Positions 2,861-63,245 of a stretch of DNA of 64,000 nucleotides are shown here, one piece after another. A model generated the notes under the pieces. The model ran no database searches. It was not told the DNA's origin and saw nothing but the letters and a program-made list of their open reading frames with translations. Numbering within the stretch: position 1 is the first letter of the stretch; the number at the start of each line of letters is the position of its first letter. Source of the DNA: Verrucomicrobiales bacterium (GTDB taxonomy: Bacteria > Verrucomicrobiota > Verrucomicrobiia > Verrucomicrobiales > DEV007); the NCBI GenBank assembly GCA_028047635.1, contig JAOFXR010000010.1:1-64000 (forward strand). The letters are read 5' to 3'. The translations under genes were made by a program, and so were the position numbers.

Positions 2861-3344
2861 GCTGTGGAGTTTGGGGAGTGTTAACTTAACCGATACACTT
2901 TGCCGAGCAAACTGAATTAAAATCTGATTAAGTGAGGTTCAGGTCGCGCCATCGAATTTCTAAACGAGACGATGAAAAAATGTCAGGGATTCGCAAATAC
3001 TATGATCTACCAACATTCCATGTGGAACAATCGACCGGTAATTAGAGAACGAGCGAGTCGAAGCCTTATTAGAGCAGGAACACCGCAGCATAGAGGAAAA
3101 ACAGCAAGTTGGCTCATTCCGCTAAGCCTCTCGATAACTTCCTACAATATATGTAATATAAAACAGTGAATGATGGTGCACGATGGCTCAAGCCCCTCCT
3201 GTGAAGCCTCTTACCGTGTTCCCATTTATTGAATCTCTGCGTAAGTACTGTTGCAGGTTTGCGTCGATATCTTGCATTGTTCATCTTGAAGCGACCGCCT
3301 GAATGGTATTAACTCTCAGAATAAATATTCACCTTTCATTCGAT
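2861..3344. other. Divergent intergenic region
   Basis: About 480 bases between the leftward bamD-like gene and the rightward FG-GAP gene. It is richer in A and T than the flanking genes and must hold both promoters, but I could not fix a convincing pair of promoter boxes. A 65-codon frame at 2972-3169 has no protein-like character. No RNA gene or repeat was seen. Confidence 0.6.
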
Positions 3345-39286: not shown

Positions 39287-41503
39287 TTAGTAAATGCGGA
39301 CCGACCAGCTGTTCACCGGTGTTCTCGAAAGCCTCAATGTAGAGAGCGCCCTCGCATCATTCTCGTGAAACCCGAGAATAGGGCGGCCGTCAAAAGCAAA
39401 CGAAGGGCTGCTCGTTTCATAGCGATTGCGAGAAGGAAAAGGTTCAGTCGCATCCGGTAGCGAGTCGGCGATGGTCAATTCTGCACGAAATCCAAGCACG
39501 GAATCAATGGAATCAAGATCCCACTCGTGCTCATGGAGGTAACTCCTCGGAATCCGAATCGTGAGTAGCTTCGCTCCATCATCGGCGGTATCGAGTGTGG
39601 AAGCAACCCCCTTGGCGCTTAAAACCATATTATACCCTGCGCCGAAAGATCCGAGGCGAATCGCAGACGTTAATCCCGGCCCGTCTGTCGCCTTGGTATA
39701 AACCTCGACCGGTTCGATCGCTCCAAAGCTGCAAACGCCATCACTGGATCGAGCATCCAGGAAAAGGCGCACTTGTATCGCCGCCTTGTCGCCCATGTCA
39801 GGAATCCGAAATCCCTCAAGTCGGGCGATGGCATAAAGAGCCTTCTCATCAGCATCGAAGAGCCACGATGCTTTCCCTTCGGGCCGCTGCTTGGCTTCCA
39901 TTGTTCCAGCCGGTCTTGCATTGGCGTAATCAGACCATGCCCGCATAGCAATTGGTTCACCGAGCACTAGATCTTTGGTCGCCTCCATCTCTCGAGTGAA
40001 ACGAACTTTTCTCCCGTCAGCCTCGACCTGAATCCAAACATCATTCTGAGATTGCGCTTCGTTTCCGCCTTCAAAATCAAAAATCGAAAACACAGTCTTT
40101 GTGCCAAGCGGAGAGACTGAAAATGGAGTTGAAGGTCCTACCTTTTCGCCCATTCCGACACGAAACGTTCCCGAAACAGGTTTGTCATAACCGCTCACGA
40201 GATCCCATTCAATTCGCAGCTTATTCGAAACATTGATGTAATGACGGGACTTCCACATCGCTGTCACAGGTCCCATTCGAACCGGCAAATCGACGAGCTC
40301 TGCACCGATGGTATCTTCAAGAACAAAGCTGAACCGCCCCAGCTCATCACTCGCTGCGATCGGGTAAAAAAGGTCAGACCCATCCCGCGATTTCCCGACG
40401 AGCGGCCGCTGGTAGCGGAATAGAAGTTGGGTCGTTTCTCCCGCGTCTACTTTAAAGCGCTGCGCAATATCAACAGGAATGATAGAGCGGCCTACCGCGA
40501 GCGCCCCGATACTTCCCTCCTGCGGCTCGCTTGACTGATTCGTAATCGCGACCGTGACGTTTATATTGCTGTTATTCTCGTAAGCGGCAACCGCCGCATA
40601 AGTGAATTTTGAAACGCGAGGTCCATTTTTGAGATCATCAAAGATGACTTCGCCCAGATACTCATTGGCTTTCATCGCCGGATGGACTCGCTCACGCGTT
40701 GGCAAATCAGGCCCGAACTTAAAAATGCTGGTGAGTTTATCGCCAATCACCTGCATACCAGCCTGAGGTTGGGTAGCGGGATCGACTCCACCTCCAAGCC
40801 TGACTTGATGACCTCCCAGATCCATAAAGAGCACCTCATTACGTGCAGCAACTTCACGAGCGGCAGTGGCATAGGGTCTGGTAATCCCCCACTCCATGGC
40901 ACCTTCACCAAAGTTAACGAGGGTAGGACTAAAAATGATAACATCCGTCTTAGCTGCTTTTCCAGCGTTGATAATTTCCTGAATCGCAAGCTGGTAGCTG
41001 TCGATCGAGAGATAGCCAAACGAGTCGAAAATACCAAACTGAACGAGAAGCAAATCGGGATCATGAACAAACGCATCGGTCGCGGCACGACGAAGCCCAT
41101 CCAGTGCATTTCCATCGGAAGTAGTCAGATTTTCCAAGGTGATTTCGTTACCAAGATAGGCAGAGACCTTCGCTGAACCTCCATCGGGCGGATTCAGCAA
41201 CTTAACTCCCCCCGTATAGAAAAACTCACGGGCAAGACGAGTCAAAAACATTCCCGTGTAAGAGAACAGCGGATTGCCACTTTCCCAGGCACTGGGAAGC
41301 GGCGTGATGCCCCCCATGACACCATCACCAATCGCAACGATGTGAACAGGATCACCTGCCTCGAGTTTCGCAAAACTGCGAGGAATATAGCGCTTGAACC
41401 GTTCCCTTTGGTCGAGAGTCAGCGGGTAACCAAATAGATTCGCGATTCCGAAAACCAGCACCAGCCCAATGGCGAGTCTTGCGATTATTGTGGTGTGTCT
41501 CAT
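39287..41503 (-). CDS. Large membrane-anchored SGNH-like protein without the serine
   Basis: A 738-residue protein with an N-terminal membrane segment (IIARLAIGLVLVFGIANLFG). The first half (about residues 45-290) has the SGNH layout: VAIGDGVMGG stands where block I GDS(L) is expected, with Gly61 in place of the serine; LLVQFGIFDSFG matches block III; and RERVHPAMKANEYLG supplies H274. The second half has an Ig-like segment and then a DOMON or CBM9-like part (about 535-730, KASWLFDADEKALYAIARLEG). The loss of serine argues for a binding role. The intact SGNH gene follows it, so the two may work as a pair. Confidence 0.7.
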   Translation of the reverse strand: MRHTTIIARLAIGLVLVFGIANLFGYPLTLDQRERFKRYIPRSFAKLEAGDPVHIVAIGDGVMGGITPLPSAWESGNPLFSYTGMFLTRLAREFFYTGGVKLLNPPDGGSAKVSAYLGNEITLENLTTSDGNALDGLRRAATDAFVHDPDLLLVQFGIFDSFGYLSIDSYQLAIQEIINAGKAAKTDVIIFSPTLVNFGEGAMEWGITRPYATAAREVAARNEVLFMDLGGHQVRLGGGVDPATQPQAGMQVIGDKLTSIFKFGPDLPTRERVHPAMKANEYLGEVIFDDLKNGPRVSKFTYAAVAAYENNSNINVTVAITNQSSEPQEGSIGALAVGRSIIPVDIAQRFKVDAGETTQLLFRYQRPLVGKSRDGSDLFYPIAASDELGRFSFVLEDTIGAELVDLPVRMGPVTAMWKSRHYINVSNKLRIEWDLVSGYDKPVSGTFRVGMGEKVGPSTPFSVSPLGTKTVFSIFDFEGGNEAQSQNDVWIQVEADGRKVRFTREMEATKDLVLGEPIAMRAWSDYANARPAGTMEAKQRPEGKASWLFDADEKALYAIARLEGFRIPDMGDKAAIQVRLFLDARSSDGVCSFGAIEPVEVYTKATDGPGLTSAIRLGSFGAGYNMVLSAKGVASTLDTADDGAKLLTIRIPRSYLHEHEWDLDSIDSVLGFRAELTIADSLPDATEPFPSRNRYETSSPSFAFDGRPILGFHENDARALSTLRLSRTPVNSWSVRIY

Positions 41504-41565
41504 GTTCCTCTTCTGACGAGCGTATGACGGGAGAGGCACGCGCATTATTAGACTGAGTTTCCAAT

Positions 41566-41589
41566 TAAAAAGCCCCGAAAATCGGGGCT
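41566..41589 (-). terminator. Intrinsic terminator of the PKS-NRPS gene
   Basis: An 8-bp perfect stem (AGCCCCGA with its complement, 41571-41578 and 41582-41589) with a 3-base loop; on the minus strand it is followed by TTTTTAATT. It lies 36 bases after the PKS-NRPS stop and before the next leftward gene, so the megasynthase transcript should end here. Confidence 0.88.
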
Positions 41590-41624: not shown

Positions 41625-44600
41625 TCAAGTAGCAGTGGAGGCATCCTTCTCATTGCTGAGAAATGAATCAATCCCCGCCTCGGGAAGAAAGAAACCGGCC
41701 ATCTGCAACTTAGCAGGTGTCACTTCCATTTCTTCGAGTGCCTCATAGTGAGCTACTGCCTCTTTGTGCTCCAACGGTCCTAGTGTGGAGGAAAGGTCAT
41801 CGTTGGATCCCGTCAGGAGACTGACGAGAACACATCCGGTGATTTCATTCTTGTCACGGCCGGCAAGGAATTTAGTGAAAGCATCCTGAACTGACTCATC
41901 CACGTCCTCCGCTTCATCGGGAAGGTAGATGGTCTCATTCACTACGTTGGACATCCGGAGTTCACCACCAGTGGTGAACAGAATATCATGTTCAACAGTG
42001 AATCGACGAATCGCTTCATCAACACGGAATACGGGTGGAAAGCTATAATCAACGATCAGCGCGCCTGGCTTAAGCGCTTTGATATCGAGAACACCGGGAA
42101 GGTTTGAGGAAGCTACGACGATCGATGCCTCGTAGACTTCAGGAGGAAGGGCTCCCCCGTTCTTAACGATATCAACTTGTCCCTGATAGCCGGCATCGCG
42201 CACAAGGTCGCGGCAACGACTCATCTGATCATCAGTTTGATAGGGATCACAGAGAATCAAGCGCTTGGGATGCTCCATGACATCAAGCATCAACAGGAGC
42301 GTTCCAAAACCAATCGACCCGAGGCCAACCGCTGAGAGAGTCTCATTGGAAAGGTCGCGTCCTGTCTTGGCTAGAATGCCCTCGACTGATTTAACAATCG
42401 TAGCCGAACGGGTCGCATCACCGGTCGTGATTTCCGGAAGATCTTTAAGCCCCGCAATCCATTCGCTGATCTTACGACCATGATCGGTGGTCATCGGGAT
42501 CACTCCGGTCAACGAGACGCACTTGGCACCCGCCTCGGCGGCCATTTCAAGAGCGGCGATTGTAGGAGCCTTCACCGAATCGAGATTTTTGTAAAAATCC
42601 GTCTCAAAGCAAGGAAGCATCAATACACCGATCTTGCCTTCATCCAGCTCATACACATTGGTAAGACGTGGCTTGCCGGCAAAGAGTCGCTCGGAAATCT
42701 CGTCACGGGTCATGCCGGACAAGCTGACGAGCACATCCGGGATATAGGCCAGTGCGACCGCATCCAATTTCGGCATTTCCTCAACGGTATCCTCAATTGA
42801 GATATGGGCGAAATCTTCAAACGAGGGAATGAGCTCTGAATCATCTTCCGAATCAACCACTGCGGCAGTAGCTGCTTCAATTCGCTCACTGGAGAGATAC
42901 TGAGACAATTGTTCAATGTTGGGATGAGTCAGAAAGACATCCACAGGAACGTCCTGCCCGAACTCGTCGGAAACATCCACGATGATTCGCAACGCCATCA
43001 GTGAGTCCCCTCCCATTTCAAAGAAGTTATCGGTTACCCCAAAATCTTCGGAATCAAAATTGCGGCTGAATACTTTCCAGAGGTGCTCCTCTGCCGAGGT
43101 GCGAGGAGCCACAGTTTCCCCATCGGAGGAAGCTCCTATCGTCGGCATTGGAAGTCGACGTCGATCAATCTTCCGGTTCGGCGTAAGAGGAAATTCCTCT
43201 ACGCGCTTGAAGAAAGCAGGAATGTAACTCGCAGGCAGATTTACAGCGAGGTTCTCACGAATCGTTGCCACATCAAAAGAGCTGTTGTCAGAGATAAAGT
43301 ACCCGACTAGACCTTCGCCTGTTGGTAAGTCTTCGCGTTTCGCGACGACCGCTTGCTTAATGCCGTCGATGCTCTCCATCTGCTGCTCGATATCACCAAG
43401 CTCCATCCGAACACCCCGCACTTTGACCTGGAAGTCGACACGTCCAAGGCACTCAAGCTTGTTGTCCCGGTTCCAGCGAGCGAGGTCGCCGGTTCGGTAG
43501 AGTCGCTGTTTGCCAGCCCCTGGAATATCAATCTCACGAAATGCTTCCGCAGTCAGATCCAGCTGGTTACGATAGCCACGGGCGAGACCGGAACCACCGA
43601 TCCAAAGTTCACCCGTGAATCCCTGCGGCACGAGTTTGTTATTTCCATCAAGAATGTAGACCTGGGTATTCGCAATTGGAAGACCAATTGAAATGGTCTC
43701 ATCACCTTCCTTAATCTTCTCAATCGATGACCAGACCGTTGTCTCTGTTGGACCGTAAAGGTTCCAGACTTCAGCAGCCGAATTAACCAGCGTGTTGGCA
43801 AGACCTCTCGTGAGGGCTTCACCACCGCAGAAAATCCGTAGATCGCTCTTCCCTTCCCAACCGCTGTCGAGAAGAAGCTGCCAGGTTGCAGGGGTTGCCT
43901 GCATCACAGTGATGTCCTCTTCGGAAAGCAGGTTGGCAAGACGGCGACCGTCTTTTACATCATCCCCACTCGCCATGACCACTTTCGCGCCGGCAAGAAG
44001 TGGAAGAAAAAGTTCCAGCAATGAGATATCGAAGGAGAGAGTCGTCACCGCAAGAAGGGTGTCATCTTTATCGAGTCCCGGAGCCTTCTCCATCGAACGG
44101 AGGAAGTTCACGGCGGCACGATGAGGAATTTCAACGCCTTTCGGAGTTCCCGTCGAACCCGAAGTGTAGATGATGTAAGCGAGCGAATCCGCTGTAACAC
44201 CCTTCACGTCCGGAGCCTTGGAGGTTCCTTCGATGCTGTCGAGGTTAATGGACTTCCATCCACCTGCCGGTGCTTCAGAGAAATGCTTTCCGGAGGCGAT
44301 CAACGCCTTCGGTGCGGCATCCTCAAGCATCAGGTCGAGTCGCTGAGCTGGGAAATCAGGATCAAGAGGCACGTAGGTAGCACCCGCTTTCAACACTCCG
44401 AGGAGCGCTCCGATCATCCGGGGTGAACGATCAGCGAGAACGCCGACATTGTCCCCGACTCCAACTCCATCAGCAATAAGATCACGAGCGACGCCATTCG
44501 CGAGGCGATTGAGCTTTCCGTAAGTAGTGTGATTGTCCTCAAAGACAACCGCAACATCTTCATCTTTCTCAGCGGCAACCGCGGCAATAAGATTGTGGAG

Positions 44601-47600
44601 CAAGGCATCGTCTTCGAATTTCGCTTTCGTGTCGTTCAAAGTGGAAACGAGCGTCTTCTCATCGTCGGCATCAAGAAGCTTCACTTCAGAAACCCTCGTT
44701 GACGAATCAGCCGTGATCTGGCGAAGCACTTGCTCGTAGAGACCATTCAACTCCTTGATCGTCGCTTCATCGAAAAGATCACTGTTATACTGCCAACATC
44801 CGAAAAGCTGACCTCCGGCTTCTTCCAGTGTCAGGGTAATCTCGAACTGTGACTGACGAGTCGTAAGATCGATCGTTTCCATCGAAAGGTCACCGACGTG
44901 GAAGGTGTGCCCACCCTGACCAATCAGAAATACGGCGATTCCCTCGTCATCAATACCGGGAACTTTTTCCATCGTGAAGCTCACTTGGAAAAGTGGCGAA
45001 CGGCCCGGATCACGAACGACGTCAAGGCGATCGACCATGCGAGCGAGTGGGTATTGCTGATTTTCCAGAGCACCATTGACCGCAAGTGAGTTGCTAGCGA
45101 GATAATCAGCGACGGTTGGATCATCTTCCACCGTGCTTCGAACCGGAACCGGGTTGATGAAGTAACCAACACTGCTCTTCAGCTCAGGCTGCGTTCTGCC
45201 GGCGAGTGGAACACCGATCACGATGTCGTCTTGTTGGCAGTAACGGTGCATCAAGATGTCGTAAGCAGACAGGAGCGTCGTGAAAAGAGTAACGCTGTTT
45301 TCCTGGGCAAGTGTATTGACCGAATCAGTAAGCGTCTCGTCGAGCTGGAATCCGTAAGTCGCGCCGTTGAAAGTCTGAACAGCCGGTCTCGTGCGATCCG
45401 TCGGGAGATCGATCGCTGCAGGAGCACCCGCAAGATGCTCTTTCCAGAATTCGAACATGTTTTCACCCGCCTCACTTTCGAGGTGAGCTTTCTCCCAATT
45501 CACGAAGTCTGAGTAAGACGCCGCAATCGGCTCAACCTGCGGCGTTCTTCCTGCCTTGGTTGAGAAATAATATTCGATGAGATCCTGGATCATCACCGCA
45601 ATCGACCACGCATCCGAGATGATGTGGTGCATGCTTAGCAAAGCGACGTGGGCATCGTCCGCGGTGCGGAAAAGCTCAAGTCTTACGACAGGACCACGCT
45701 CGAGGTTGAACGGACGTCCTGCGTGCTCACTGATGAGCGCTTTCAACTGCTCGTCATCAAGTGCGGTGCAATCGTGCTCGCGGAAGTCGATCGTACGACC
45801 GGTATGAACGACTTGCATGGGCTCGCCGTTGACCGTTGTAAAAGTCACGTCGATGAGAGGATGACGCTCGAAGAGAAGCGAGAACGCTTTCTTCATCGCA
45901 TCGATATCGAGGAGCGGACGGAACTTGCCGGAGAAGTTCAGATTGTAGGCCGAAGAATTCGGAGCAAGACGGTTAAGGAACCACAGTGCCTTCTGACCTT
46001 CAGTGAGCGGGAACATTTCCGGCATCTCGCCAGTCACCTCGAACTCAACTAGGCTGGAGGCATCGAGCCCTGATCCATCGCTGGAGGCTGCACCACCGGA
46101 TTCAATCAATTTCTCGAGAACAGGAATAGAAAGATCCTTGATACTTGGGCCATTTAAAACGGATCCCATCGGCATTGACATGCCAAGCTTCTCTTCAATT
46201 CGGTTCACCAACTCAATCGCCATGAGTGAGTCGAGTCCGAGGTTCGTGAGTGGCGTGTCCTTATCGAGACGTGAAGCATCGGTTCCGAGAACAGCACCCA
46301 CCTGAGCAGCGATAAGGTCTTCGACAAGACCGGCGCGCTTCTCAACAGGAGCTTCGAGAATTCGAGCTGACATGGAGTCACCTCCACCTGAACTGGAGCG
46401 AGGAACCACAGGAAGGAACATCTTCGATCCACCCACGGAAGGACTGAAACGACCAAGGGCCTGCCAGTTGCAACGAGCGGCACCGAGCTGATAGCAATCC
46501 GATGGAGCGCCGAGACTGAACAAGTGGAGTGTTTCCTCCATGTTCGTCGCGCCGAGTCCCACTAATTCAAGATACTGTTGCGTCTTCTCATTACGAGAAA
46601 CGAATCCAGCGCCCTCAAGAGCACCCCAGTTAAAAGTAAGAGAAGGCAAGCCGAGTGAACGACGGTGATATGACAACTGATCGAGGAAAACGTTTCCTGC
46701 GTTGTAATTGGACTGCTTCACCGCGCCAATAAAGGCTGAAAACGATGAGAAACAGATGAAAGAATCGAGCGGAATATCGAGCGTCGCTTCGTGAAGGTTC
46801 CACGCACCAAGCATCTTCGGAAGAAGCACGCTATCAAAACGTTCTTTGTTGAGTTCGAGGACAAACTCGTCATCGAGAACCATGGCACCGTGAATCACTC
46901 CAATAAGCGGCGCATCGCCAGCCTGGACCTCTTTTACGATTCTATCAATGTCAGCACGTTTCGTGACATCGCCACGGGCATCCATGATAGTGGCTCCGCT
47001 AGCCTTGAGTGCTGCAATTTTTTCGAGAACATCGTCTTTAGGACCGGAACGGCTCATGAGAGCAAAATGACGTGCTCCGTTGTCGGCCATCCACTGAGCA
47101 AGTTCGAGTCCAAATCCGCCGGCACCACCTGTGATCAGGAATGTGCCATCGCCACGGAAGCGGTTACCATCTTCAGTCGGCTGTCCGATCTCGATTTCAG
47201 GAAGATCGAAGTCAAGCACATTTTTACCAATGTGCTTGCCTGCCGCCATATAGCGGAATGCTTCGACCACTTCCGTCACTGGAAATGACTTATTGGGAAG
47301 TGGCTTGTAAGTCTCCTCGTAAAACATGACCTCCAGCTCGGAGAACATTTTCGCAACGTAAGCAGGCTTACTCTGCAAATGCTGAGCCAGATCAATGACG
47401 AAGAAACTGATGTTGTTACGAAGTGGCTCAAGACCAATCTTCGAGTTGCCATAGACATCGACTTTACCGATCTCCATGTAGCGGCCGAATGTTTTCAGAA
47501 CGCTGAAGTTCTTCGGAATGAAATCGCCGGCAAGCGAATTAAGAACCGCGTCGACTCCTTCCCCGTTCGTGATACGCATGATCTCATCCGCAAACTTGAG

Positions 47601-50600
47601 GGTTCGGGAATCAAGCACGTGGTCCACTCCCATATCGGTGAGCAACTGACGCTTTTCAGGACTGCCGGCCGTTGAGAAAACAACCAGACCAAGATGCTGC
47701 GCAATCTGAATCGCAGCCTGCCCCACTCCACCAGTTCCGGCATGAATGAGAATGCTCTCGCCCTTCTCCATATGGGCGAGTTCGTTCATCGCATAGTGCG
47801 TCGTGAGGAACACGGTCGGCAAAGTAGCAGCCTCGACGTGGCTCATGGTATCCGGCTTACGGAATACCATGTTGCGGTGAACAGTGACGTAGCTTCGGAA
47901 ACAGTAGGGAGCCATGCCAACGACATTGTCGCCGACCGCGAGGTCCTTCACATTTGATCCGACTTTTACAACAGTCCCTGAGAAATCATCACCGAACCAT
48001 TTCAGGTCTACGGGATTACCCGGATAAATTCCGAGTGCTTTCATTACATCACGGAAGTTGATACCACCCGCTTTGATCTGAATCTCGATCTCGTCGGGAT
48101 CCGGCTCGCGAGGGCTCGTTTCGTTCAGCGACAGATTTGTCAGAATACCCGGCTTGTCGATTTGGAGACGATACGGAAGCACCGTTCCATCGGCCTGAAC
48201 CGCGTTTCGAGTGCGTGCAGGAAGATCATCCGGCTTCACACGATGGACACGACGCACGAAGCGACCATTCCCACGGAAAGCAATCTCGTGCTCTTTATCT
48301 GAAAGCGTGATTTCATCGCAGAGATCTTTGATCTCAAACTGATTATCCGCAGGATCAAGGTCGATCTGAGTCCAGCAATATTCAGGATGCTCGTTGTTCA
48401 CCACTCGCAACAATCCAGTGATTGGTGCAGAAGCGAGACCGGGGAGCGATTCCCCCGGGTTAACCGGCATGGTTCCGCGGGTGAGAAAAACAACCTGAGG
48501 TCTCGTTTCCCACTCGCGATTAACGATCGCAGGAACCAAGCCGAGCGCAAAGTGAACACCTGTATCCTGTGCGTCAGACAACGAAGCCAAATCAAGCTCA
48601 GCAGCTCTTGGGTGGTCCAATGCCAAGGTCTGTATAATCATCTTAACCGATCGCTCTTGCTCATCAAGTAAATCGAGCGCCGCAGTGATTGCCGCGACGG
48701 TTCCATCGACAATCTGCATTTCGAGATCATCAGAAGCGAACTCAGTTGAAACCTTTTTACCAAGACCCGACGCATCATCTGTGATCAAAACCACGTCTTT
48801 AACGATCACCTCCCCTTCCTCAGAAGCAGGAGCACTGGAATCAGCCTCCTCATCCACTTCCGGCATCTCGACAGGGCTTGGTGCTTTCGCAACCAAACAG
48901 GCCTGCTGGTCTTCCGTTTGAATCGGGGAACTGATAAAGCTGGTCACTTCGCGGAAATCGAGATTGCCGAGAAACGTTGCCCACTCTTTCCGGGTAAGAA
49001 GCGCTGAGTGTTCACGGAGATCAGTATCTGTGAAACGCCACCAACCGCCGAGAAGACCAAAAACATTATCAAGCGCCGCACGGCGCCACGTCACCTCGAG
49101 AAACATCAGAGTGGCATCGGGAGCCATACAGCGACGAAGATTATTCATCGTCACGGTGAGATCCTGCGTTGCGTGGATCACGTTGGAAGCAAGGATGATA
49201 TCAAAATGGTGTGGCTCGAAGCCCTGAGATTCAGGACTCTTCTCACAATCGAACATTTTGTATTCAACAAACGGATACTCCTCTTCAAATCGATCCTGCG
49301 CGGACTGAAGGAATAGCGGACCGTTATCAGTGAACACATACTCGGTCCGCTCAGGTGGGAACACACCGAGGATTTCGTTGGTAAGAGAACCGGTTCCTGC
49401 ACCCACTTCAAGAACACGAATCGCGCGGCGCTCAGGAAGATCTTTCACCGCTGCGGCAAGTGCGAGACGGATCTGCTGGTTGATGACAGGAAAGTCAGCG
49501 CCTTCGCGGTAGAACCGCTCCATGACGCTCGCTGAGCCACCGGGGAAAAGAACCTCGAGAGGATCCGTTTCGCCACAAAGCACGCCGGCAAGATTTGGGC
49601 CGGTAAGACGCTGAAGCTGTGCCTCTGAAGCGAACTCCGGCATTTCGACAGCGAGTTTATCGACCCATTGAAGGGCTTCCTCATGCTCGGGTTTCTCAAC
49701 CACCTTCCACGTTCCATCGCCAGCAGCCTTAAGGACCCCGGCTTCGGTGAGAGCGGTCATCTGTCCATAAACCAATTTGCGATGCTGATCAGCAATCGAG
49801 AGGTCAGCCATGTGGGCATCCACTTTAACCGTATCCCCTACTTCAGGATCCCAACCCAGCTCGATGTAGGCATTGGTAATGAACTGACGCGAAATCGCTT
49901 CCATCGCAGGAAGAAACGTCCCGTAGTGATCAGCAAGACCACGTGCGTCATAAAGCTTTTGTAGCCCTTCTCCCGCTGCAGCTACCAACTCGCCTGGAGA
50001 TGGCATTTCGGCAGAACCTTCGATGCGAGCGCCCTTAAGCATGGCACGCTCCCAACGAGCTTCGTAGAGGCATTTCTCCAGATCGTCGTTGTCATTCTGC
50101 TCAACGCGGTCGGCACGGAATCCGTAAATCTCTGCAACCAGATTGCCTGCGTCATCATAAACATCGATGTCAGCGATGATGTATTCGCGGTCGTTGTTCG
50201 AATTTACCTTCGCATGCCCCCAGAGACGAAGCGGCGGTTTATCGGTGTATAGTCGAATGCTGCGAATCGCGGCGGGAAGATAAAAGTAATCACTTCCTTT
50301 GGCGCCATCAGGAATGACCTGCCCACCTTTGACAGTGTGGAAACAAGCGTCCAACACTGCGGGGTGAAAGTGATGATCAGGGATCGTGTCACGAAGCCCC
50401 TCAGGAGCGACGATCTCTGCAAGCGCCTCTCCATCTTTTCTCCAGACATTCTGAAGGTGCTGGAACAACGGGCGGAACTGATAGCCCGCATCCTCGTAGT
50501 CCTCATAATACTCTTCATGAGTAAAATGCTTTTCCATGTCCGCTTTGATCGCGTCGAAGTCGGCCACCTTATCAACCGGCAACGGCTGCTTGCGGAGCAC

Positions 50601-53600
50601 GCCCTGAGAATTGAGTTCCCAATCCTTCTGATCGCCTGTGCTACTGAAGATTTGAAAAATACGAGTATCAGGATCAAACACGACCTGAACAGCCGGAACT
50701 TTCTCTTCAGTAATGAAGAGCGCCTTTTTCATCTCGAGGTCCTCGACGACATAATTCTCGTCAGGGAACAACTTACGGGAAATCGCGATACCGATCTCGC
50801 CATAGCCGGCGGCAGGGAAAACAACGCTGTCCCAGAAGCGGTGATCATCGAGCCAGGTAAAATAGCGAGGATCGAGATCAAACCTCCAGGTCGGTTTAGG
50901 AGCCGTTTGAACGAGACCAAGCAAAGGATGCTCAAGCGGAGCACAACGGAGATACTCATTCTCGGGTGACTCGAGCCAGAACTTCTCTTTCTGCCACGCA
51001 TAGGTCGGAAGACGAACGTCAGCTCCATTTGACTGGTTTACCGATTCCCAATCGACCTTGTAACCATGGTTATGCAGACTTGCGAGCTGCGTCAGCATTT
51101 CGACAGACTCATCCGTCTTACGCTTAAGGCTGGAGAAATAGAATCCCTTACGCCCCTGGTCTGAAAGACACTCAAGGATGGGATTCTGCAGAGCAGGGTG
51201 TGGACCCAACTCAAGGAAAGTATCTTCGCCCGAGCGAATCAAGTTAGCAATCGCCGGCGCAAAAAGAACGGACTCACGGACGTTCTTCCACCAGTATTCA
51301 CCATTGAGCTTAGTTCCTTCGCACATTCCGCCAGTCACGGTGGAGATGTATGGAATCGTCGTCTCGCGAGGCTTGATGCCTTTGAGTGTTTCAAGGAGCT
51401 CGTCCTTGATCGGCTCCATCTGATGAGTATGGAACGCATAGTCGATTCTGAGCCAGCGAACAAATTTGCCCTCTTCTTCGAGCTTCTCGACGACGGCTTC
51501 TAGTGGCTCGGTGTTACCCGCAAGCGTGAGCATACCGGGGCTGTTCACCACAGCGACCTGAACTTCGTCTTCGACCCCCGCGAGCACCTTCTTGGCTTCC
51601 GCCTGAGAGATACCGACGGCGACCATGCGGCCGTTTCCACCGGTGTTGTCCTGAAGACGTGAGCGGTGGTAAATAATGGTGACGGCGTCCTCCATCGTGT
51701 AGGCACCGGCGACATAGGCTGCGGCGACTTCGCCCACGGAGTGACCGACGACTTTCGAAGGCACGATGCCCCAAGACTTCCAAAGCTCAGCGAGAGCGAT
51801 CTGGAGTCCAAAAATAGCGGGCTGCGCGATGTTCGTACGATTGATCTGAGAAGACTCTTCATTCTTCTTCATTTCATCAATCAACGACCAACCCGCAAGC
51901 GGCTTGAGGTGCTTGTCGATCTCTTCGAGAACGCCACGGAATACAGGCTCACGGTCAATGAGCTCCTGCCCCATTTTCCACCACTGAGCCCCCTGCCCCG
52001 TAAAGACAAAAACCAGCGGATGCGCCTCTCCGGCAGGCTTCCCGGAAATTACTTTATCACTGCTACCAGTGGCGAGCCACTCGGTCATCTCATGGAGAAG
52101 GTCAGTCTTGTCGTCCGCGATAATAGCGAGACGGTTGTCATGATGCTCACGATTCAGGCCTGCTGCTGCTGCAATCGCGCTGAGATTATTCTTCGTTCCC
52201 TTGAGGTAACGGCGCCACTTCTTCACCGTATCAGTGAGGGCATCATCGCCACGAGCCGAAACAGGCAAAAGCACCGGACGTTTTGCTTTCTTCTCATCGC
52301 TCGTAGAACTCGACGCCTTCTTTACCGGCGGAGCCGCCTCGAGAACGATATGCGAGTTGGTTCCTCCAAATCCAAAACTGTTCACTCCCACCACTGGCGG
52401 ATAATCGCCGAGGTGAGGCAATGGCTGCAACTCGGTTACGACCTTCATCTTGAACTCATCGAATGGAATATTCGGGTTCGGATTCTTGAAATTCAGGTTC
52501 GGTGGAATCGTATCGTGATGCAATACCAATGCCGCCTTAGCAACTCCCGCAACCCCTGAGCCGGACTCGAGGTGTCCCACGTTGGTTTTCACAGATCCAA
52601 CCATGCAGACATCATCATCATCACGGCCATCGGAAAGAACGATCCCGAGAGCACGCGTCTCGATCGGGTCACCCACAGGCGTTCCCGTTCCGTGAGCTTC
52701 CATGTAACGCACTCGCTTAGGCTCAATACCGGCCTGGGCGTAGGCAATACGTAGCATCTCAGCTTGAGTTTCGACACCGGGAACCGTCATCGAGGACGTG
52801 TTTCCATCCTGGTTGATCACCGCGGCTTTGATCGTGCAATAAATACGATCACCATCCTCCTGCGCCTTAGCGAGGGGTTTAATAACGAACATTCCAGCAC
52901 CTTCGCCACGAACATAGCCATTCGCTCTGTCATCGAAGGCGAAACATTGCCCCGTAGGGGAAAGCATCGTCGCTTTCGAAAATCCGATCGAAGCATCTGG
53001 CGTCAAAAGTGCATTCACTCCTCCGGCGAGAGCCATGGTCGCACTGCCACCCCAGATGCTTTCGCACGCGAGGTTAATAGCGACGAGAGCGGAAGAACAG
53101 GCCGTATCAACCGAAACAGAAGGACCTTTGAGATCAAAAAGATAAGAAATACGGTTCGACGCAATCGAGAGTGTGCTTCCCGAGTTCGTGTGCACATCAA
53201 CATTTCGGGCATCACTCTGCGCCACGTTGGCGTAGTCATTCGAGGCGATTCCAACATAGACGGAAGTCTGCGATCCGCGAAGGCTGCCCGGCGCCATGCC
53301 CGCATCTTCAAGAGACTCCCACGCAGTCTCCAGCATCCAGCGCTGCTGGGGATCCATTCGCAGCGCCTCACGAGGAGAGATACCAAAAAACTGGGCATCG
53401 AACTTGTCGTGATCATGAACAAAACCACCCCACTTGGTGATCATCTTGCTCGGAATATCTACATTTTCATGATGCCATCGCTCGCGATTCCAACGATCAC
53501 TAGGCACCGGAACAATCCCCGACTTGCCTTCAACCATCATTTGCCAGAAGGACTCGGGACCGGAAACTCCTCCCGGTAGTCGACATCCTATCCCCACGAT

Positions 53601-53639
53601 AGCCAAAGGCTCGTGATTCGCTGATTCGTTCTTGGACAT
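41625..53639 (-). CDS. Hybrid polyketide synthase-nonribosomal peptide synthetase with acyl-ACP-reductase-like terminal domain
   Basis: A 4004-residue cytoplasmic megasynthase. Domains in order: KS (about 1-435; C181, H316, H356), AT (about 545-860; GHSVGE with S634, YAFH motif), DH (about 915-1210; H933, D1097), C-methyltransferase (about 1340-1600; GAGTG from 1413), pseudo-KR (about 1615-1800), ER (about 1830-2130; GTGGVGQA from 1968), KR (about 2155-2400; TGGAGGFG from 2170, Y2312), ACP (S2471), condensation (H2671-H2672, D2676), adenylation (TSGSTG from 3159; pocket glycine-like), PCP (S3546), and a terminal domain (about 3600-3990) with GLGSIG from 3772 and Cys3936. No thioesterase, loading module or docking region is seen. 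One PKS module with full reduction and methylation plus one peptide module suggests an iterative, methylated acyl chain joined to one amino acid. The gene is monocistronic. DH block I has Asp where Gly is usual. Confidence 0.95.
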   Translation of the reverse strand: MSKNESANHEPLAIVGIGCRLPGGVSGPESFWQMMVEGKSGIVPVPSDRWNRERWHHENVDIPSKMITKWGGFVHDHDKFDAQFFGISPREALRMDPQQRWMLETAWESLEDAGMAPGSLRGSQTSVYVGIASNDYANVAQSDARNVDVHTNSGSTLSIASNRISYLFDLKGPSVSVDTACSSALVAINLACESIWGGSATMALAGGVNALLTPDASIGFSKATMLSPTGQCFAFDDRANGYVRGEGAGMFVIKPLAKAQEDGDRIYCTIKAAVINQDGNTSSMTVPGVETQAEMLRIAYAQAGIEPKRVRYMEAHGTGTPVGDPIETRALGIVLSDGRDDDDVCMVGSVKTNVGHLESGSGVAGVAKAALVLHHDTIPPNLNFKNPNPNIPFDEFKMKVVTELQPLPHLGDYPPVVGVNSFGFGGTNSHIVLEAAPPVKKASSSTSDEKKAKRPVLLPVSARGDDALTDTVKKWRRYLKGTKNNLSAIAAAAGLNREHHDNRLAIIADDKTDLLHEMTEWLATGSSDKVISGKPAGEAHPLVFVFTGQGAQWWKMGQELIDREPVFRGVLEEIDKHLKPLAGWSLIDEMKKNEESSQINRTNIAQPAIFGLQIALAELWKSWGIVPSKVVGHSVGEVAAAYVAGAYTMEDAVTIIYHRSRLQDNTGGNGRMVAVGISQAEAKKVLAGVEDEVQVAVVNSPGMLTLAGNTEPLEAVVEKLEEEGKFVRWLRIDYAFHTHQMEPIKDELLETLKGIKPRETTIPYISTVTGGMCEGTKLNGEYWWKNVRESVLFAPAIANLIRSGEDTFLELGPHPALQNPILECLSDQGRKGFYFSSLKRKTDESVEMLTQLASLHNHGYKVDWESVNQSNGADVRLPTYAWQKEKFWLESPENEYLRCAPLEHPLLGLVQTAPKPTWRFDLDPRYFTWLDDHRFWDSVVFPAAGYGEIGIAISRKLFPDENYVVEDLEMKKALFITEEKVPAVQVVFDPDTRIFQIFSSTGDQKDWELNSQGVLRKQPLPVDKVADFDAIKADMEKHFTHEEYYEDYEDAGYQFRPLFQHLQNVWRKDGEALAEIVAPEGLRDTIPDHHFHPAVLDACFHTVKGGQVIPDGAKGSDYFYLPAAIRSIRLYTDKPPLRLWGHAKVNSNNDREYIIADIDVYDDAGNLVAEIYGFRADRVEQNDNDDLEKCLYEARWERAMLKGARIEGSAEMPSPGELVAAAGEGLQKLYDARGLADHYGTFLPAMEAISRQFITNAYIELGWDPEVGDTVKVDAHMADLSIADQHRKLVYGQMTALTEAGVLKAAGDGTWKVVEKPEHEEALQWVDKLAVEMPEFASEAQLQRLTGPNLAGVLCGETDPLEVLFPGGSASVMERFYREGADFPVINQQIRLALAAAVKDLPERRAIRVLEVGAGTGSLTNEILGVFPPERTEYVFTDNGPLFLQSAQDRFEEEYPFVEYKMFDCEKSPESQGFEPHHFDIILASNVIHATQDLTVTMNNLRRCMAPDATLMFLEVTWRRAALDNVFGLLGGWWRFTDTDLREHSALLTRKEWATFLGNLDFREVTSFISSPIQTEDQQACLVAKAPSPVEMPEVDEEADSSAPASEEGEVIVKDVVLITDDASGLGKKVSTEFASDDLEMQIVDGTVAAITAALDLLDEQERSVKMIIQTLALDHPRAAELDLASLSDAQDTGVHFALGLVPAIVNREWETRPQVVFLTRGTMPVNPGESLPGLASAPITGLLRVVNNEHPEYCWTQIDLDPADNQFEIKDLCDEITLSDKEHEIAFRGNGRFVRRVHRVKPDDLPARTRNAVQADGTVLPYRLQIDKPGILTNLSLNETSPREPDPDEIEIQIKAGGINFRDVMKALGIYPGNPVDLKWFGDDFSGTVVKVGSNVKDLAVGDNVVGMAPYCFRSYVTVHRNMVFRKPDTMSHVEAATLPTVFLTTHYAMNELAHMEKGESILIHAGTGGVGQAAIQIAQHLGLVVFSTAGSPEKRQLLTDMGVDHVLDSRTLKFADEIMRITNGEGVDAVLNSLAGDFIPKNFSVLKTFGRYMEIGKVDVYGNSKIGLEPLRNNISFFVIDLAQHLQSKPAYVAKMFSELEVMFYEETYKPLPNKSFPVTEVVEAFRYMAAGKHIGKNVLDFDLPEIEIGQPTEDGNRFRGDGTFLITGGAGGFGLELAQWMADNGARHFALMSRSGPKDDVLEKIAALKASGATIMDARGDVTKRADIDRIVKEVQAGDAPLIGVIHGAMVLDDEFVLELNKERFDSVLLPKMLGAWNLHEATLDIPLDSFICFSSFSAFIGAVKQSNYNAGNVFLDQLSYHRRSLGLPSLTFNWGALEGAGFVSRNEKTQQYLELVGLGATNMEETLHLFSLGAPSDCYQLGAARCNWQALGRFSPSVGGSKMFLPVVPRSSSGGGDSMSARILEAPVEKRAGLVEDLIAAQVGAVLGTDASRLDKDTPLTNLGLDSLMAIELVNRIEEKLGMSMPMGSVLNGPSIKDLSIPVLEKLIESGGAASSDGSGLDASSLVEFEVTGEMPEMFPLTEGQKALWFLNRLAPNSSAYNLNFSGKFRPLLDIDAMKKAFSLLFERHPLIDVTFTTVNGEPMQVVHTGRTIDFREHDCTALDDEQLKALISEHAGRPFNLERGPVVRLELFRTADDAHVALLSMHHIISDAWSIAVMIQDLIEYYFSTKAGRTPQVEPIAASYSDFVNWEKAHLESEAGENMFEFWKEHLAGAPAAIDLPTDRTRPAVQTFNGATYGFQLDETLTDSVNTLAQENSVTLFTTLLSAYDILMHRYCQQDDIVIGVPLAGRTQPELKSSVGYFINPVPVRSTVEDDPTVADYLASNSLAVNGALENQQYPLARMVDRLDVVRDPGRSPLFQVSFTMEKVPGIDDEGIAVFLIGQGGHTFHVGDLSMETIDLTTRQSQFEITLTLEEAGGQLFGCWQYNSDLFDEATIKELNGLYEQVLRQITADSSTRVSEVKLLDADDEKTLVSTLNDTKAKFEDDALLHNLIAAVAAEKDEDVAVVFEDNHTTYGKLNRLANGVARDLIADGVGVGDNVGVLADRSPRMIGALLGVLKAGATYVPLDPDFPAQRLDLMLEDAAPKALIASGKHFSEAPAGGWKSINLDSIEGTSKAPDVKGVTADSLAYIIYTSGSTGTPKGVEIPHRAAVNFLRSMEKAPGLDKDDTLLAVTTLSFDISLLELFLPLLAGAKVVMASGDDVKDGRRLANLLSEEDITVMQATPATWQLLLDSGWEGKSDLRIFCGGEALTRGLANTLVNSAAEVWNLYGPTETTVWSSIEKIKEGDETISIGLPIANTQVYILDGNNKLVPQGFTGELWIGGSGLARGYRNQLDLTAEAFREIDIPGAGKQRLYRTGDLARWNRDNKLECLGRVDFQVKVRGVRMELGDIEQQMESIDGIKQAVVAKREDLPTGEGLVGYFISDNSSFDVATIRENLAVNLPASYIPAFFKRVEEFPLTPNRKIDRRRLPMPTIGASSDGETVAPRTSAEEHLWKVFSRNFDSEDFGVTDNFFEMGGDSLMALRIIVDVSDEFGQDVPVDVFLTHPNIEQLSQYLSSERIEAATAAVVDSEDDSELIPSFEDFAHISIEDTVEEMPKLDAVALAYIPDVLVSLSGMTRDEISERLFAGKPRLTNVYELDEGKIGVLMLPCFETDFYKNLDSVKAPTIAALEMAAEAGAKCVSLTGVIPMTTDHGRKISEWIAGLKDLPEITTGDATRSATIVKSVEGILAKTGRDLSNETLSAVGLGSIGFGTLLLMLDVMEHPKRLILCDPYQTDDQMSRCRDLVRDAGYQGQVDIVKNGGALPPEVYEASIVVASSNLPGVLDIKALKPGALIVDYSFPPVFRVDEAIRRFTVEHDILFTTGGELRMSNVVNETIYLPDEAEDVDESVQDAFTKFLAGRDKNEITGCVLVSLLTGSNDDLSSTLGPLEHKEAVAHYEALEEMEVTPAKLQMAGFFLPEAGIDSFLSNEKDASTAT

Positions 53640-53667: not shown

Positions 53668-53720
53668 ATAAGTGAGCCCGCTAAGAGATCGGGGGCGGCC
53701 TCTCGCAGTATCTCACTTAT
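53668..53720 (-). repeat. Inverted repeat in the PKS-NRPS leader
   Basis: ATAAGTGAG (53668-53676) and its exact complement CTCACTTAT (53712-53720) lie 29 to 81 bases upstream of the start codon, with 35 bases between, part of which is G/C-rich. It is in the predicted 5' leader, downstream of the promoter. It could be an RNA stem controlling translation or an operator half-site pair. Confidence 0.5.
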
Positions 53721-59959: not shown

Positions 59960-61237
59960 TCACCCAGCCGACATCGCTGCCAAATCAGCTACCCGGAAAC
60001 CGTAGTCCAGTTCGGTAGGCAGCTCGCAGATTTCGCGAACCGCGGTAAAGAGATCCTCGAACTTATCAATGAATACATCACCAACGAGTAGGTCGGTGAG
60101 CACAGGGCGAAGCTCAGGATGCTTTTTGACGAGCTTCCCGAAATTGAACTCAGGATGGTAGAAGGCGCAGACGATCTTTCTCATCCGCTCAATTGCGAGG
60201 CAGACATCGTTTCCATATTGCTCGAACTGAGCCGCACTGGTATCCCCTTTTTCAAGAGCCAGATCAATCGCATCGGCGGCGAGTTCGCCTGACTTGAGTG
60301 CCAGAAAGACACCGGAAGAGAAAACGGGATCCAGGAAGGCGAAGGCATCACCAACGAGAACAACACCATCTCCTGCGCAGTAATTAGAGCGGTAACTGTA
60401 TTCACCCGTGATCCAGTATTGCCCTACTTGCTTACCTGACTCGAGGTGCTCGGTGATCCACACATTCTCCTCGATTTCACGATCAAAAATCTCACTTGGC
60501 TCGCGTGAATCGCGGTAAAGGTAATCGCGATCGGCAACAAGCCCCACGCTGACCCTATTCCCTCGCATTGGGATATACCAAAACCACCCTTTGTTAGGGA
60601 TGTAGGCAACTGTGGTCGAGCCTGCATCGAGACCCGGGTCGCGCATAGCCCCTTCGTAGTATGTCCAGATGGCAATTTTATTCAGTTCCGGATCTCGATT
60701 TCGCCACTTCTGTTTGCTCGCGACGACACAATCCCGACCTGAACCATCAATGACGATCTTTGCAAAGACGTCTCGCGACTCACCCTCTAAATTCTCAACC
60801 GAAACGCCGATCACAGCGCCGGACTCATTCTTGATGAGTTGAGTCACCTTTTGCTCATCAAGCACTTCGGCACCAAGCTCCTTCGCGCGATCGACCAACA
60901 TTTGATCAAACTCCATTCGCTCAACCTGCCAGGTCACCGCAGACGCTCTGTTATCATGCTCAAAAAAGTAGAACGGCTTCGAGATCTGACCGTCCGTCGA
61001 GACGAACTGAACGCTGTGCTTCTGCTGAAATCCGATCTCATCCATTTTCTCTGTGAGACCAAGCCGATCGAGAGTGAACCAGCAAAAGGGCATCATTGAT
61101 TCACCGACATGGTAGCGTGGGAACTTCTCTTTCTCGAGAACAAGAACGCGTCTCCCCTTCTCAGCCAGTAAGGCAGCTGAAGTGGCTCCGGCGGGGCCAG
61201 CTCCGATTACGACTACATCCCAATTTGAATCACTCAT
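59960..61237 (-). CDS. FAD-dependent oxidoreductase with halogenase motifs
   Basis: A 425-residue flavin enzyme. Residues 9-30 hold the FAD loop GAGPAGATSAALLAEKG. FPRYHVGESMMP follows, as in flavin halogenases and geranylgeranyl-reductase-like proteins. The halogenase WxWxIP signature is complete (W218-F-W220-Y-I-P223). Lys73 lies where the PltA/CmlS-type enzymes have the haloamine lysine (QKHSVQFV). GDAFAFLDPVFSSG is the second FAD motif. Many relatives with these motifs do not halogenate, so the activity is inferred. It is the last gene of a four-gene operon, 18 bases after the chorismate-lyase-like gene. Confidence 0.75.
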   Translation of the reverse strand: MSDSNWDVVVIGAGPAGATSAALLAEKGRRVLVLEKEKFPRYHVGESMMPFCWFTLDRLGLTEKMDEIGFQQKHSVQFVSTDGQISKPFYFFEHDNRASAVTWQVERMEFDQMLVDRAKELGAEVLDEQKVTQLIKNESGAVIGVSVENLEGESRDVFAKIVIDGSGRDCVVASKQKWRNRDPELNKIAIWTYYEGAMRDPGLDAGSTTVAYIPNKGWFWYIPMRGNRVSVGLVADRDYLYRDSREPSEIFDREIEENVWITEHLESGKQVGQYWITGEYSYRSNYCAGDGVVLVGDAFAFLDPVFSSGVFLALKSGELAADAIDLALEKGDTSAAQFEQYGNDVCLAIERMRKIVCAFYHPEFNFGKLVKKHPELRPVLTDLLVGDVFIDKFEDLFTAVREICELPTELDYGFRVADLAAMSAG

Positions 61238-61255
61238 AAAAACGAAAGGTTCTCT

Positions 61256-61882
61256 CTATTTAGTTACGGTCTGAACCCACTGTTCGGATTCATTCGAGCG
61301 CGGCAAAATCTCGACGATATCGGCGAAAACCATACCATCAGCATCGAGAAGCTGATTGCATCGCCCGTAAAGAATCTCGCCTTCGCGCTGGTCGAGAGCC
61401 CCGGCAATCAACGGGTCTCCCGGAACTGAAAAATAGCTCGAGGGCTTGCCGCTGTGAACAACTTCGTAATCTCCCAGAATGCCTCCAAGCGGTTTCTTAC
61501 CGCTGATGACTTCCTCCCGAACCTTTTCAGGGAGCGATTTCAGCTGAATCGCAATGGCCCCATACTCGACCGGCTTATCAGAAGCCTTCGCGTGCAAACT
61601 AACCAGACGCATCACGAATGCATCGGTGGACTCATGCGCATGAACTTCCAGATAGAGTTTCGAATGATGAAATGCCGCCAGAGTCGGGGTCATATCATTC
61701 TGATGAACAAGTAACGAGCGATAAGGATACGGAACCTCACTTCCTTCAAGAAAGGTAAAGTCAGGCAGTTCCGCGCCTGCTTTCTCGTAGAAAAAGTGGA
61801 ATGGCAACAGTTGATGAAGTGCCTCTGCCAGCGCATCGCTCGCAGCCTGCCTCATTTGAGATGGATCAGGTGTAGCGTGCAT
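61256..61882 (-). CDS. Chorismate-lyase-like (UbiC/DUF98-type) protein
   Basis: A 208-residue protein. By pattern it resembles the UbiC fold: YPYRSLLVHQNDMTPTL (R55), KPLGGILG (130-137, cf. the PLG loop of UbiC), LYGRCNQLLDADG (171-183) and DIVEILP with E191, in the same order as in the E. coli enzyme that makes 4-hydroxybenzoate from chorismate. The first conserved arginine of UbiC is not clear here. The start at 61882 overlaps the radical SAM stop by 17 bases; the longer frame to 61924 is less likely. The match is by eye only, so a different function is possible. Confidence 0.5.
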   Translation of the reverse strand: MHATPDPSQMRQAASDALAEALHQLLPFHFFYEKAGAELPDFTFLEGSEVPYPYRSLLVHQNDMTPTLAAFHHSKLYLEVHAHESTDAFVMRLVSLHAKASDKPVEYGAIAIQLKSLPEKVREEVISGKKPLGGILGDYEVVHSGKPSSYFSVPGDPLIAGALDQREGEILYGRCNQLLDADGMVFADIVEILPRSNESEQWVQTVTK

Positions 61883-63245
61883 CACGATGTTCTTCGAGGA
61901 AGAAGCCATGAAGAAGGCGGTCAATTTGAAGCAACCCGTCGCGACTCACGACGATGTCTCCCTTATCAATGGAAAAATAGCCCTGCTCCTTGAGCGCGGC
62001 GAGTTCAGCGGGGAACCGGGCCTCAGGATCAACGCCATACTTGTCTTTGAAATACTGCAGGCTGGTCCTACCGAGCTTGAGTTGGAGAACAAACTCGCGA
62101 ATAAAACGCTCTTCGGCATTCGTCTTGTAAGAACGGAAAATAGGAAGTTCTCCGCTATCGACCTGAGTCATATAGGGCCCCACATCAGCTTGGTTCTGAT
62201 AATGCACTCCTCCGAAATGACCAAAGCTGGCAACCCCGGCAGAGAGTAAATCAGCCCCTTCCCACAGACTGTCACGATAGATAAACTTTGTTGTCTCGGG
62301 ATTTTTCACCACGGTGTAGGCGCTGTTCACGGTGTAGCCGGCGTCCTGAAACTGATCAAACGCCCAGTCGACCCACCTTCGCTTCGTCTGCCAATTCGCG
62401 ACGGGAGCAGTAATCCGACCAGAGGACTTCATCTCTTTGTAAATCGTTGTATTATAGGGAATCTCCATCTGGTAAATCGTGACACAATCAGGAGATTGCT
62501 CGATCGCCGTTTCGACGCATCGCTTCCAGTTGTCCTCGGTCTCATCCATCATTCCTGCGATGAGATCAATATTGACCTGATCGAATCCAAGCGTGTTCGC
62601 AAACCCGAGAGCGCGAAACGCTTCTTTTGATCGGTGCGCCCGTCCATTCACTTCGAGAATGTGATCATCAAAGTTTTCAATTCCGAGGCTGAGCCTGGTT
62701 ACACCGATGTCACGAAGTGCTTCGAGCTTCTTCTCAGTCAGCGTTCCCGGCTCGCACTCGAAAGCGACTTCTTCAGCCTCATCCCAGGAGAAAGAATCCT
62801 TCATTCGATTCGTCAGATCCGTGAGCTGTTTGATCGAAAGATAACTTGGGGTGCCGCCTCCAAAATAAACGAATTGAGGTTTCCTCCCCGCGAGATACGA
62901 GGTTTGCGCGTAACGCTCAAACTCCTTGATCCCCGCATCGAGATAAGCGTTGATCTCATTGGAATTTTTATCGGTGTAAACGCGGAAATAGCAGAAATGG
63001 CAACGTTTCCGGCAAAACGGGATATGAAAATAAACTCCGAGATTCGTGTCCTTGGGAGTTGGTGAGTTGAGAACCTCGTGGATTTGCTTCTGTTCTTTAT
63101 CCTCACGATCCCAGAAGGAAAACGGAGGGTAGTTTGCTACGAAGTAATTTCCGACCTCCGTGTCATCCCCTTCACCATCGGAGAGCGGGACGTTCAATTT
63201 ATCAATAAGACCGTCGGAGGATTTGGAATTGGCTGTTTCAGACAT
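61866..63245 (-). CDS. HemN-like radical SAM protein
   Basis: A 459-residue radical SAM enzyme. The cluster motif is C78-RKR-C82-HF-C85, preceded by VYFHIPFC as in coproporphyrinogen III oxidases. FVYFGGGTPSYLS binds SAM, and VAFECEPGTLTEKKLEAL, RLSLGIENFDDHIL and QVNIDLIAGMMDETEDNW follow the HemN order. A HemN-type C-terminal domain is present (residues about 370-455). Given its operon partners it is more likely a HemN-like methyltransferase or other tailoring enzyme than the haem-pathway oxidase, but this is inferred. The start at 63245 lies 30 bases after the PQQ-type gene. Confidence 0.85.
   Translation of the reverse strand: MSETANSKSSDGLIDKLNVPLSDGEGDDTEVGNYFVANYPPFSFWDREDKEQKQIHEVLNSPTPKDTNLGVYFHIPFCRKRCHFCYFRVYTDKNSNEINAYLDAGIKEFERYAQTSYLAGRKPQFVYFGGGTPSYLSIKQLTDLTNRMKDSFSWDEAEEVAFECEPGTLTEKKLEALRDIGVTRLSLGIENFDDHILEVNGRAHRSKEAFRALGFANTLGFDQVNIDLIAGMMDETEDNWKRCVETAIEQSPDCVTIYQMEIPYNTTIYKEMKSSGRITAPVANWQTKRRWVDWAFDQFQDAGYTVNSAYTVVKNPETTKFIYRDSLWEGADLLSAGVASFGHFGGVHYQNQADVGPYMTQVDSGELPIFRSYKTNAEERFIREFVLQLKLGRTSLQYFKDKYGVDPEARFPAELAALKEQGYFSIDKGDIVVSRDGLLQIDRLLHGFFLEEHRDARYT

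Follow-up and report, generated by a model that had tools for sequence, protein, structure and literature searches.

A single-gene PKS-NRPS ending in an AAR/TAD-like domain is a conserved lineage trait of an uncultured Verrucomicrobia family

The window analysed here is a stretch of 64,000 nucleotides from a Verrucomicrobiales contig (JAOFXR010000010.1, assembly GCA_028047635.1), and positions 41625-53639 of its minus strand hold one intact, uninterrupted open reading frame which starts at an ATG and encodes a PKS-NRPS of 4,004 amino acids. The original prediction had listed the domains of a PKS half, an NRPS half and a release domain on one gene; Pfam gives the same domain order within this frame, and orthologues of near-equal length are present in the family. 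All domain coordinates below refer to the minus strand. The PKS half opens with a KS (52335..53612, aa 10-435; Pfam boundaries 10-503) in which the DTACSS, EAHGTGTPVGDPIE and KTNVGHLE motifs are intact, followed by an AT (51060..52019, aa 541-860; Pfam 543-860) with GHSVGE and YAFH motifs, a DH (50070..50930, aa 904-1190; Pfam 904-1182) with conserved His and Asp motifs, and a C-methyltransferase (cMT; 48930..49964, aa 1226-1570; Pfam about 1226-1563) whose nearest solved relative is CurJ. It is completed by an ER with an invariant GTGGVG motif (47205..48167, aa 1825-2145; Pfam 1825-2143), an LDD-type KR in which the catalytic Tyr is present (46605..47147, aa 2165-2345; Pfam 2165-2342) and an ACP with a GLDSL motif (46110..46328, aa 2438-2510, identical to the Pfam boundaries). 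The poorly conserved stretch between cMT and ER (48180..48842, about aa 1600-1820) gave no Pfam match, and by its position we read it as a putative structural pseudo-KR.

The YAFH motif is typical of malonyl-type ATs, and together with the intact cMT it suggests malonyl extension accompanied by C-methylation. With the Pfam order and the motifs kept, the single-module, fully reducing, C-methylating PKS fused to one NRPS module that had been proposed is intact. Single-module fungal enzymes had been cited as working iteratively. Besides this KS, the window's genome (63% complete) yields only three KS matches, all of them free-standing and type II-like, and iteration is therefore the simplest reading of the PKS half, even if no sequence feature as such shows it.

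The NRPS half consists of a Condensation domain (44649..46019, aa 2541-2997 in Pfam as well) with the motif HHIISDAW, nearest to the bacterial Txo2/Tyc3, an Adenylation domain (43152..44579, aa 3021-3496; Pfam 3021-3356) and a PCP with a GGDSLM motif (42885..43097, aa 3515-3585; Pfam 3529-3582). The ten-residue code of the Adenylation domain, DILQICLVWK, is glycine-like, and the pattern DILQ-[ILVA]-[CS]-[LM]-VWK is found in nearly all of the 32 orthologues, one of which has M at position three. Glycine has been reported for codes starting with DILQ (PMC12283262, PMC5466765, PMC10888640), and it is the most likely substrate here; another small residue is possible, since the sixth position of the code, held by Cys or Ser, is not typical for glycine.

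Of the gene's own promoter and terminator, both of which had been predicted, the terminator is borne out. A strong intrinsic terminator, AGCCCCGA-TTT-TCGGGGCT-TTTTT, with a perfect 8-bp hairpin (41562..41589, minus strand; z -4.9) lies 3' of the stop codon. Promoter-like matches, by contrast, number 8 versus 8.2 expected in shuffles, i.e. chance level, and because they are no commoner than in shuffled sequence we can call a promoter of the gene's own no better than plausible. The 5' leader contains a stable hairpin (53668..53720, minus strand; leader z -2.6 to -3.7) for which there is no Rfam match. Downstream, the neighbouring gene encodes an SGNH/GDSL-type protein of 752 amino acids (39287..41545, minus strand) and is syntenic in the genus. 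As had been claimed, no PPTase, transporter or regulator gene lies next to the PKS-NRPS gene within the window. The absence of a PPTase from the window means little, since a second PPTase-type gene was found elsewhere, by family search, in most of the near-complete PKS-NRPS-carrying relatives that were checked; the window's genome itself has two ACPS-family matches. At 59960-63245 of the window, also on the minus strand, genes for a Trp-halogenase-like flavoprotein, a 222-aa protein and a HemN-like radical SAM protein stand in tandem; the latter two overlap, and the three may form a small operon.

The most unusual part of the enzyme is its C-terminal tail (41628..42845, minus strand; aa 3599-4004). 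A release domain had been predicted at this end of the protein, and a domain does exist there, with a Rossmann GLGSIG motif and an invariant cysteine, Cys3936 (window positions 41832-41834). It has no Pfam family match, and its NCBIfam matches are weak and sub-threshold. When the single sequence was compared with the PDB by phmmer, it matched 9e4x/9e4s (E 1e-71); a profile of 31 relatives matched the same entries at 1e-117, then PigE (4ppm, 5e-10) and cyanobacterial AAR (6jzu, 1.5e-5), and hhalign against AAR gave an E of 1e-7. The titles of the best-matching entries read 'TAD from Carmabin Biosynthetic Pathway', with NAD, NADH or a Cys2238-dephospho-CoA disulfide, and the tail is approximately 35% identical to this TAD over its whole length. 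Across the 31 sequences 24 columns are invariant, including the Rossmann glycines and a single Cys, which is Cys3936. In a global profile alignment the AAR nucleophile Cys294 falls on this same cysteine; for AAR residues outside 75-249 that alignment uses an assumed sequence, the numbering of which agrees with the published Cys294. An AlphaFold model of the tail, built with 18 input sequences, is poor (pLDDT 49); TAD entries rank first against it and AAR next, and its geometry was not used. Thioesterase, SDR-type reductase and Dieckmann domains were ruled out as identities of the tail, there being no Pfam hit and an AAR/TAD match instead.

By homology, then, the tail belongs to the AAR superfamily and is carmabin-TAD-like. 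According to published work (PMC8341465, PMC9594044), the AAR-type domains of PigE and TamH form aldehydes by reducing thioesters, either carrier-bound or model ones, and because of these superfamily relatives reductive release, giving an aldehyde, is the leading reading for the tail. Among the papers covered by our literature search there was none on PDB 9e4s, nor any on AAR-type release of NRPS products. Homologues of the tail do occur elsewhere: on a Streptomyces fungicidicus plasmid (L094, 3360-15134) a TAD-like tail ends one gene of 3,925 amino acids with AMP-ligase/KS/AT/KR/C/A domains, and on a Pantoea stewartii plasmid (L093, 9549-26400) a free-standing TAD-like protein is encoded inside a PKS/NRPS operon. 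Since such homologues are found in both of these settings, the AAR/TAD-like domain is a recurrent, little-described off-loading part. The Pantoea operon also encodes a luciferase-like monooxygenase. A rule by which TAD-like tails pair with glycine Adenylation domains was tested on these two homologues and is unsupported, as the Streptomyces and Pantoea codes are not glycine-like.

Orthologues, which the original prediction had suggested seeking in other Verrucomicrobia, were found in 51 of the 75 genomes of the window's family. The tail is present in these 51 genomes, among them 35 of the 42 of good quality, with full-length frames of about 4,000 amino acids. When one genome per species was scanned, 17 relatives came up, all of them in Verrucomicrobia-type MAGs, and an even sample of the phylum gave a strong match in the window's genome alone, with weak, partial matches in four genomes. 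Loss of essential residues had been named as a sign that the enzyme might be inactive; all of the catalytic motifs are kept in the 32 aligned orthologues. Compared with the nearest orthologue, the whole gene has a dN/dS ratio of about 0.04 and the tail one of 0.03, and the gene is under strong purifying selection. Most members of the genus keep the gene order GH77 - malate dehydrogenase - PKS-NRPS - SGNH, which indicates vertical inheritance. Given its orthologues in 51 of 75 genomes, the purifying selection and the conserved catalytic residues, the PKS-NRPS is a lineage trait of an uncultured Verrucomicrobia family and not a sporadic cluster.

The enzyme had been called stand-alone, and in the window no PPTase, transporter or regulator gene does adjoin it; across the family, however, it has a consistent genomic companion, a Sulfotransfer_3 protein of 369-385 amino acids. 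The sulfotransferase gene adjoins the PKS-NRPS gene in four genera (g200, g203, g211 and g213) and is at most 1.6 kb away from it in a fifth (g212). It is present in 49 of the 51 genomes with the PKS-NRPS versus 2 of the 24 without (Fisher 1e-14), in 41/41 versus 1/9 when only genomes at least 85% complete are counted, and in 11/11 versus 1/7 when counted by genus (p 4e-4), p-values that overstate independence because the genomes and genera counted are related. Outside the family, a homologue, and then a weaker one, was found in no more than 5 of the 288 genomes sampled from the phylum. The window's genome has two copies, both unlinked to the PKS-NRPS gene, and in the window's genus (L099, L101-L103, L111) the sulfotransferase gene sits in a conserved order between topA/dprA-like genes and lpxB. 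Since it adjoins lpxB there and is unlinked to the PKS-NRPS gene, the sulfotransferase could act on another envelope lipid. The pairing of PKS-NRPS and sulfotransferase across the family hints at a conserved sulfated lipid product.

We propose that this is a bacterial monomodular PKS-NRPS working as one assembly line, and consider the proposal as a whole somewhat better than an even bet. The PKS half would build a saturated, alpha-methyl-branched acyl chain iteratively from malonyl units and SAM, and the C-A-PCP half would couple this chain to a small amino acid, of which glycine is the likeliest. The AAR-superfamily tail, with NAD(P)(H), would then take the acyl-aminoacyl chain onto Cys3936 and off-load it, most likely by hydride transfer to yield an N-acyl-amino aldehyde that may be reduced further to the alcohol. 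Finally, a PAPS-type sulfotransferase encoded elsewhere in the genome would sulfate the product, so that a conserved sulfated lipid, and not a sporadic antibiotic, would result.

Reductive release has to be weighed against an amidating one, in which a carmabin-type TAD would use NAD to oxidise and cleave the glycyl unit, so that a fatty primary amide with methyl branches would be set free and a glyoxylyl remnant left behind, with glycine serving solely as the nitrogen donor. Carmabins end in a C-terminal primary amide, and for this reason we regard amidation as a serious rival, albeit one that we judge to be somewhat unlikely. It would fit the full-length resemblance of the tail to the carmabin TAD, the crystallisation of that TAD with NAD and NADH, the glycine-like code of nearly all orthologues and a weak NCBIfam match of the tail to SbnB-type dehydrogenases (E 0.02), which oxidise C-N bonds. 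It fits less well with the fact that the tail also matches the thioester-reducing AAR and PigE and keeps their acyl-accepting Cys, and the two distant homologues of the tail that have a readable partner NRPS, those of Streptomyces and Pantoea, go with non-glycine codes. Aldehyde formation is thus the release reaction that we favour. As to chain building, the KS could take a preformed fatty acyl chain as its primer, to which one methylated, reduced unit would be added before coupling of the amino acid. Such a single round would suit an enzyme of only one module with modular enzymes such as CurL among its KS relatives, and iteration is proven by no feature of the protein; but an N-terminal loading domain (FAAL/CAL or ACP) is absent, no acyl ligase gene adjoins the PKS-NRPS gene in the window, and none was recognised in the orthologue loci that were fetched. 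We consider a single round improbable and prefer iterative extension.

The domain order had been described as fungal-like and unlike the multi-gene modular lines usual in bacteria, and if it reflected kinship, a fungal-type PKS-NRPS would have been acquired horizontally. The order is indeed that of fungal highly reducing PKS-NRPS, and the length is near that of psoA (4,007 amino acids in the PDB chain). The order is not exclusively fungal, however, and KS, C and cMT all score closest to bacterial enzymes: the KS gives 495 bits with CurL versus 380 with psoA and 355 with LovB, CurL being the top solved KS in a comparable module (one two-KS entry is higher only by summing hits of ~360 bits); the C domain gives 223 with Txo2 versus 86 with psoA; and the cMT gives 224 with CurJ versus 121 with the citrinin PKS and 89 with LovB. 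When the Verrucomicrobial KSs were placed in a tree with bacterial references from plasmids, they came out as a single group among these references (support 87/100), the sister group not being resolved, and the tail is unlike the SDR-type domain of the fungal enzymes. Single-gene, fully reducing bacterial PKSs of Deinococcus and Paraburkholderia are among the nearest KS relatives, and monomodular PKS-NRPS genes of the PTM type have previously been reported in Verrucomicrobia (PMC10308959). On these grounds the PKS-NRPS appears to be of bacterial descent, its fungal likeness one of layout alone, and we find horizontal acquisition from a fungus scarcely credible. Nor does the enzyme look like part of a modular cis-AT line with partner genes, which the original prediction had thought might surface in orthologous loci: no other PKS/NRPS gene was recognised in the window, and none of comparable size in the fetched flanks of intact orthologues. 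Further Condensation domains in the orthologue genomes sit on other contigs. Finally, the neighbouring SGNH protein could be a tailoring or release partner in an operon with the PKS-NRPS, the two genes being on the same strand and adjacent in most genomes of the genus. Against this, a terminator separates them, the SGNH gene is unlinked to the PKS-NRPS gene in some members of the genus, and it occurs in genomes and genera without the PKS-NRPS while being absent from two genera with it (genus-level p 1.0). We reject the SGNH gene as a partner, and such an operon is very unlikely; the bacterial assembly line encoded by one gene is the reading that we carry forward.

PKS-NRPS genes are mostly patchy in distribution and clustered; this one is near-universal in its family and constant in length, motifs and amino-acid code. 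Its near-universality, this constancy and its tracking with one sulfotransferase suggest a product that is conserved and physiological. Off-loading domains of the AAR/TAD kind are known from a few pathways, and here one ends a fully reducing PKS-NRPS in one protein. Tentatively, and conceding that the chances are below even, we suggest that a near-core iterative PKS-NRPS and a sulfotransferase may together produce a novel acyl-amino lipid, methyl-branched and sulfated, whose role would be structural or in signalling, with a TAD-type release that would be new to PKS-NRPS hybrids.

Among known systems, the carmabin NRPS TAD (PDB 9e4s, 9e4u, 9e4x, 9e50, 9e56) has the same Rossmann motif, conserved Cys and terminal place in an NRPS. 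Its entries number the domain 1905-2283 of the carmabin-pathway NRPS, whereas here the domain comes after a fully reducing PKS and one NRPS module. The AAR-type reductases, namely cyanobacterial AAR, the N-domain of PigE and the C-domain of TamH, share with the tail their superfamily, Cys nucleophile and nucleotide motif; they are, however, free-standing or fused to an aminotransferase and not to a PKS-NRPS, and the identity of the tail to AAR is approximately 20%. PTM-type PKS-NRPS enzymes likewise have one PKS and one NRPS module per gene, in the layout KS-AT-DH-KR-ACP-C-A-PCP-TE; the present protein has cMT and ER in addition and an AAR/TAD domain instead of the TE, Pfam giving no thioesterase match in it. 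A Nostoc plasmid (L120, 7998-16979) carries one gene that encodes KS, AT, aminotransferase, C, A and TE domains, and at another locus (L058, 5513-9133), which looks aryl-polyene-like, two FabF-like KS genes adjoin an apparent fusion of an AcpS-like domain with an acyltransferase-like part. In fungal highly reducing PKS-NRPS (psoA and, as regards the PKS half, LovB) domain order and size are the same, but the release domain is unrelated to the AAR/TAD tail. Near by KS are the single-gene KS-AT-DH-(cMT)-ER-KR-ACP PKSs of Deinococcus plasmids (QL22, KNUC1210) and Paraburkholderia dioscoreae, and in the Deinococcus plasmid systems NRPS and thioester-reductase genes lie close to the PKS. These systems are divided among several genes, and any thioester-reductase gene that they have is an ordinary one, whereas in the Verrucomicrobial family PKS, NRPS and AAR/TAD-like domain are all encoded by one gene.
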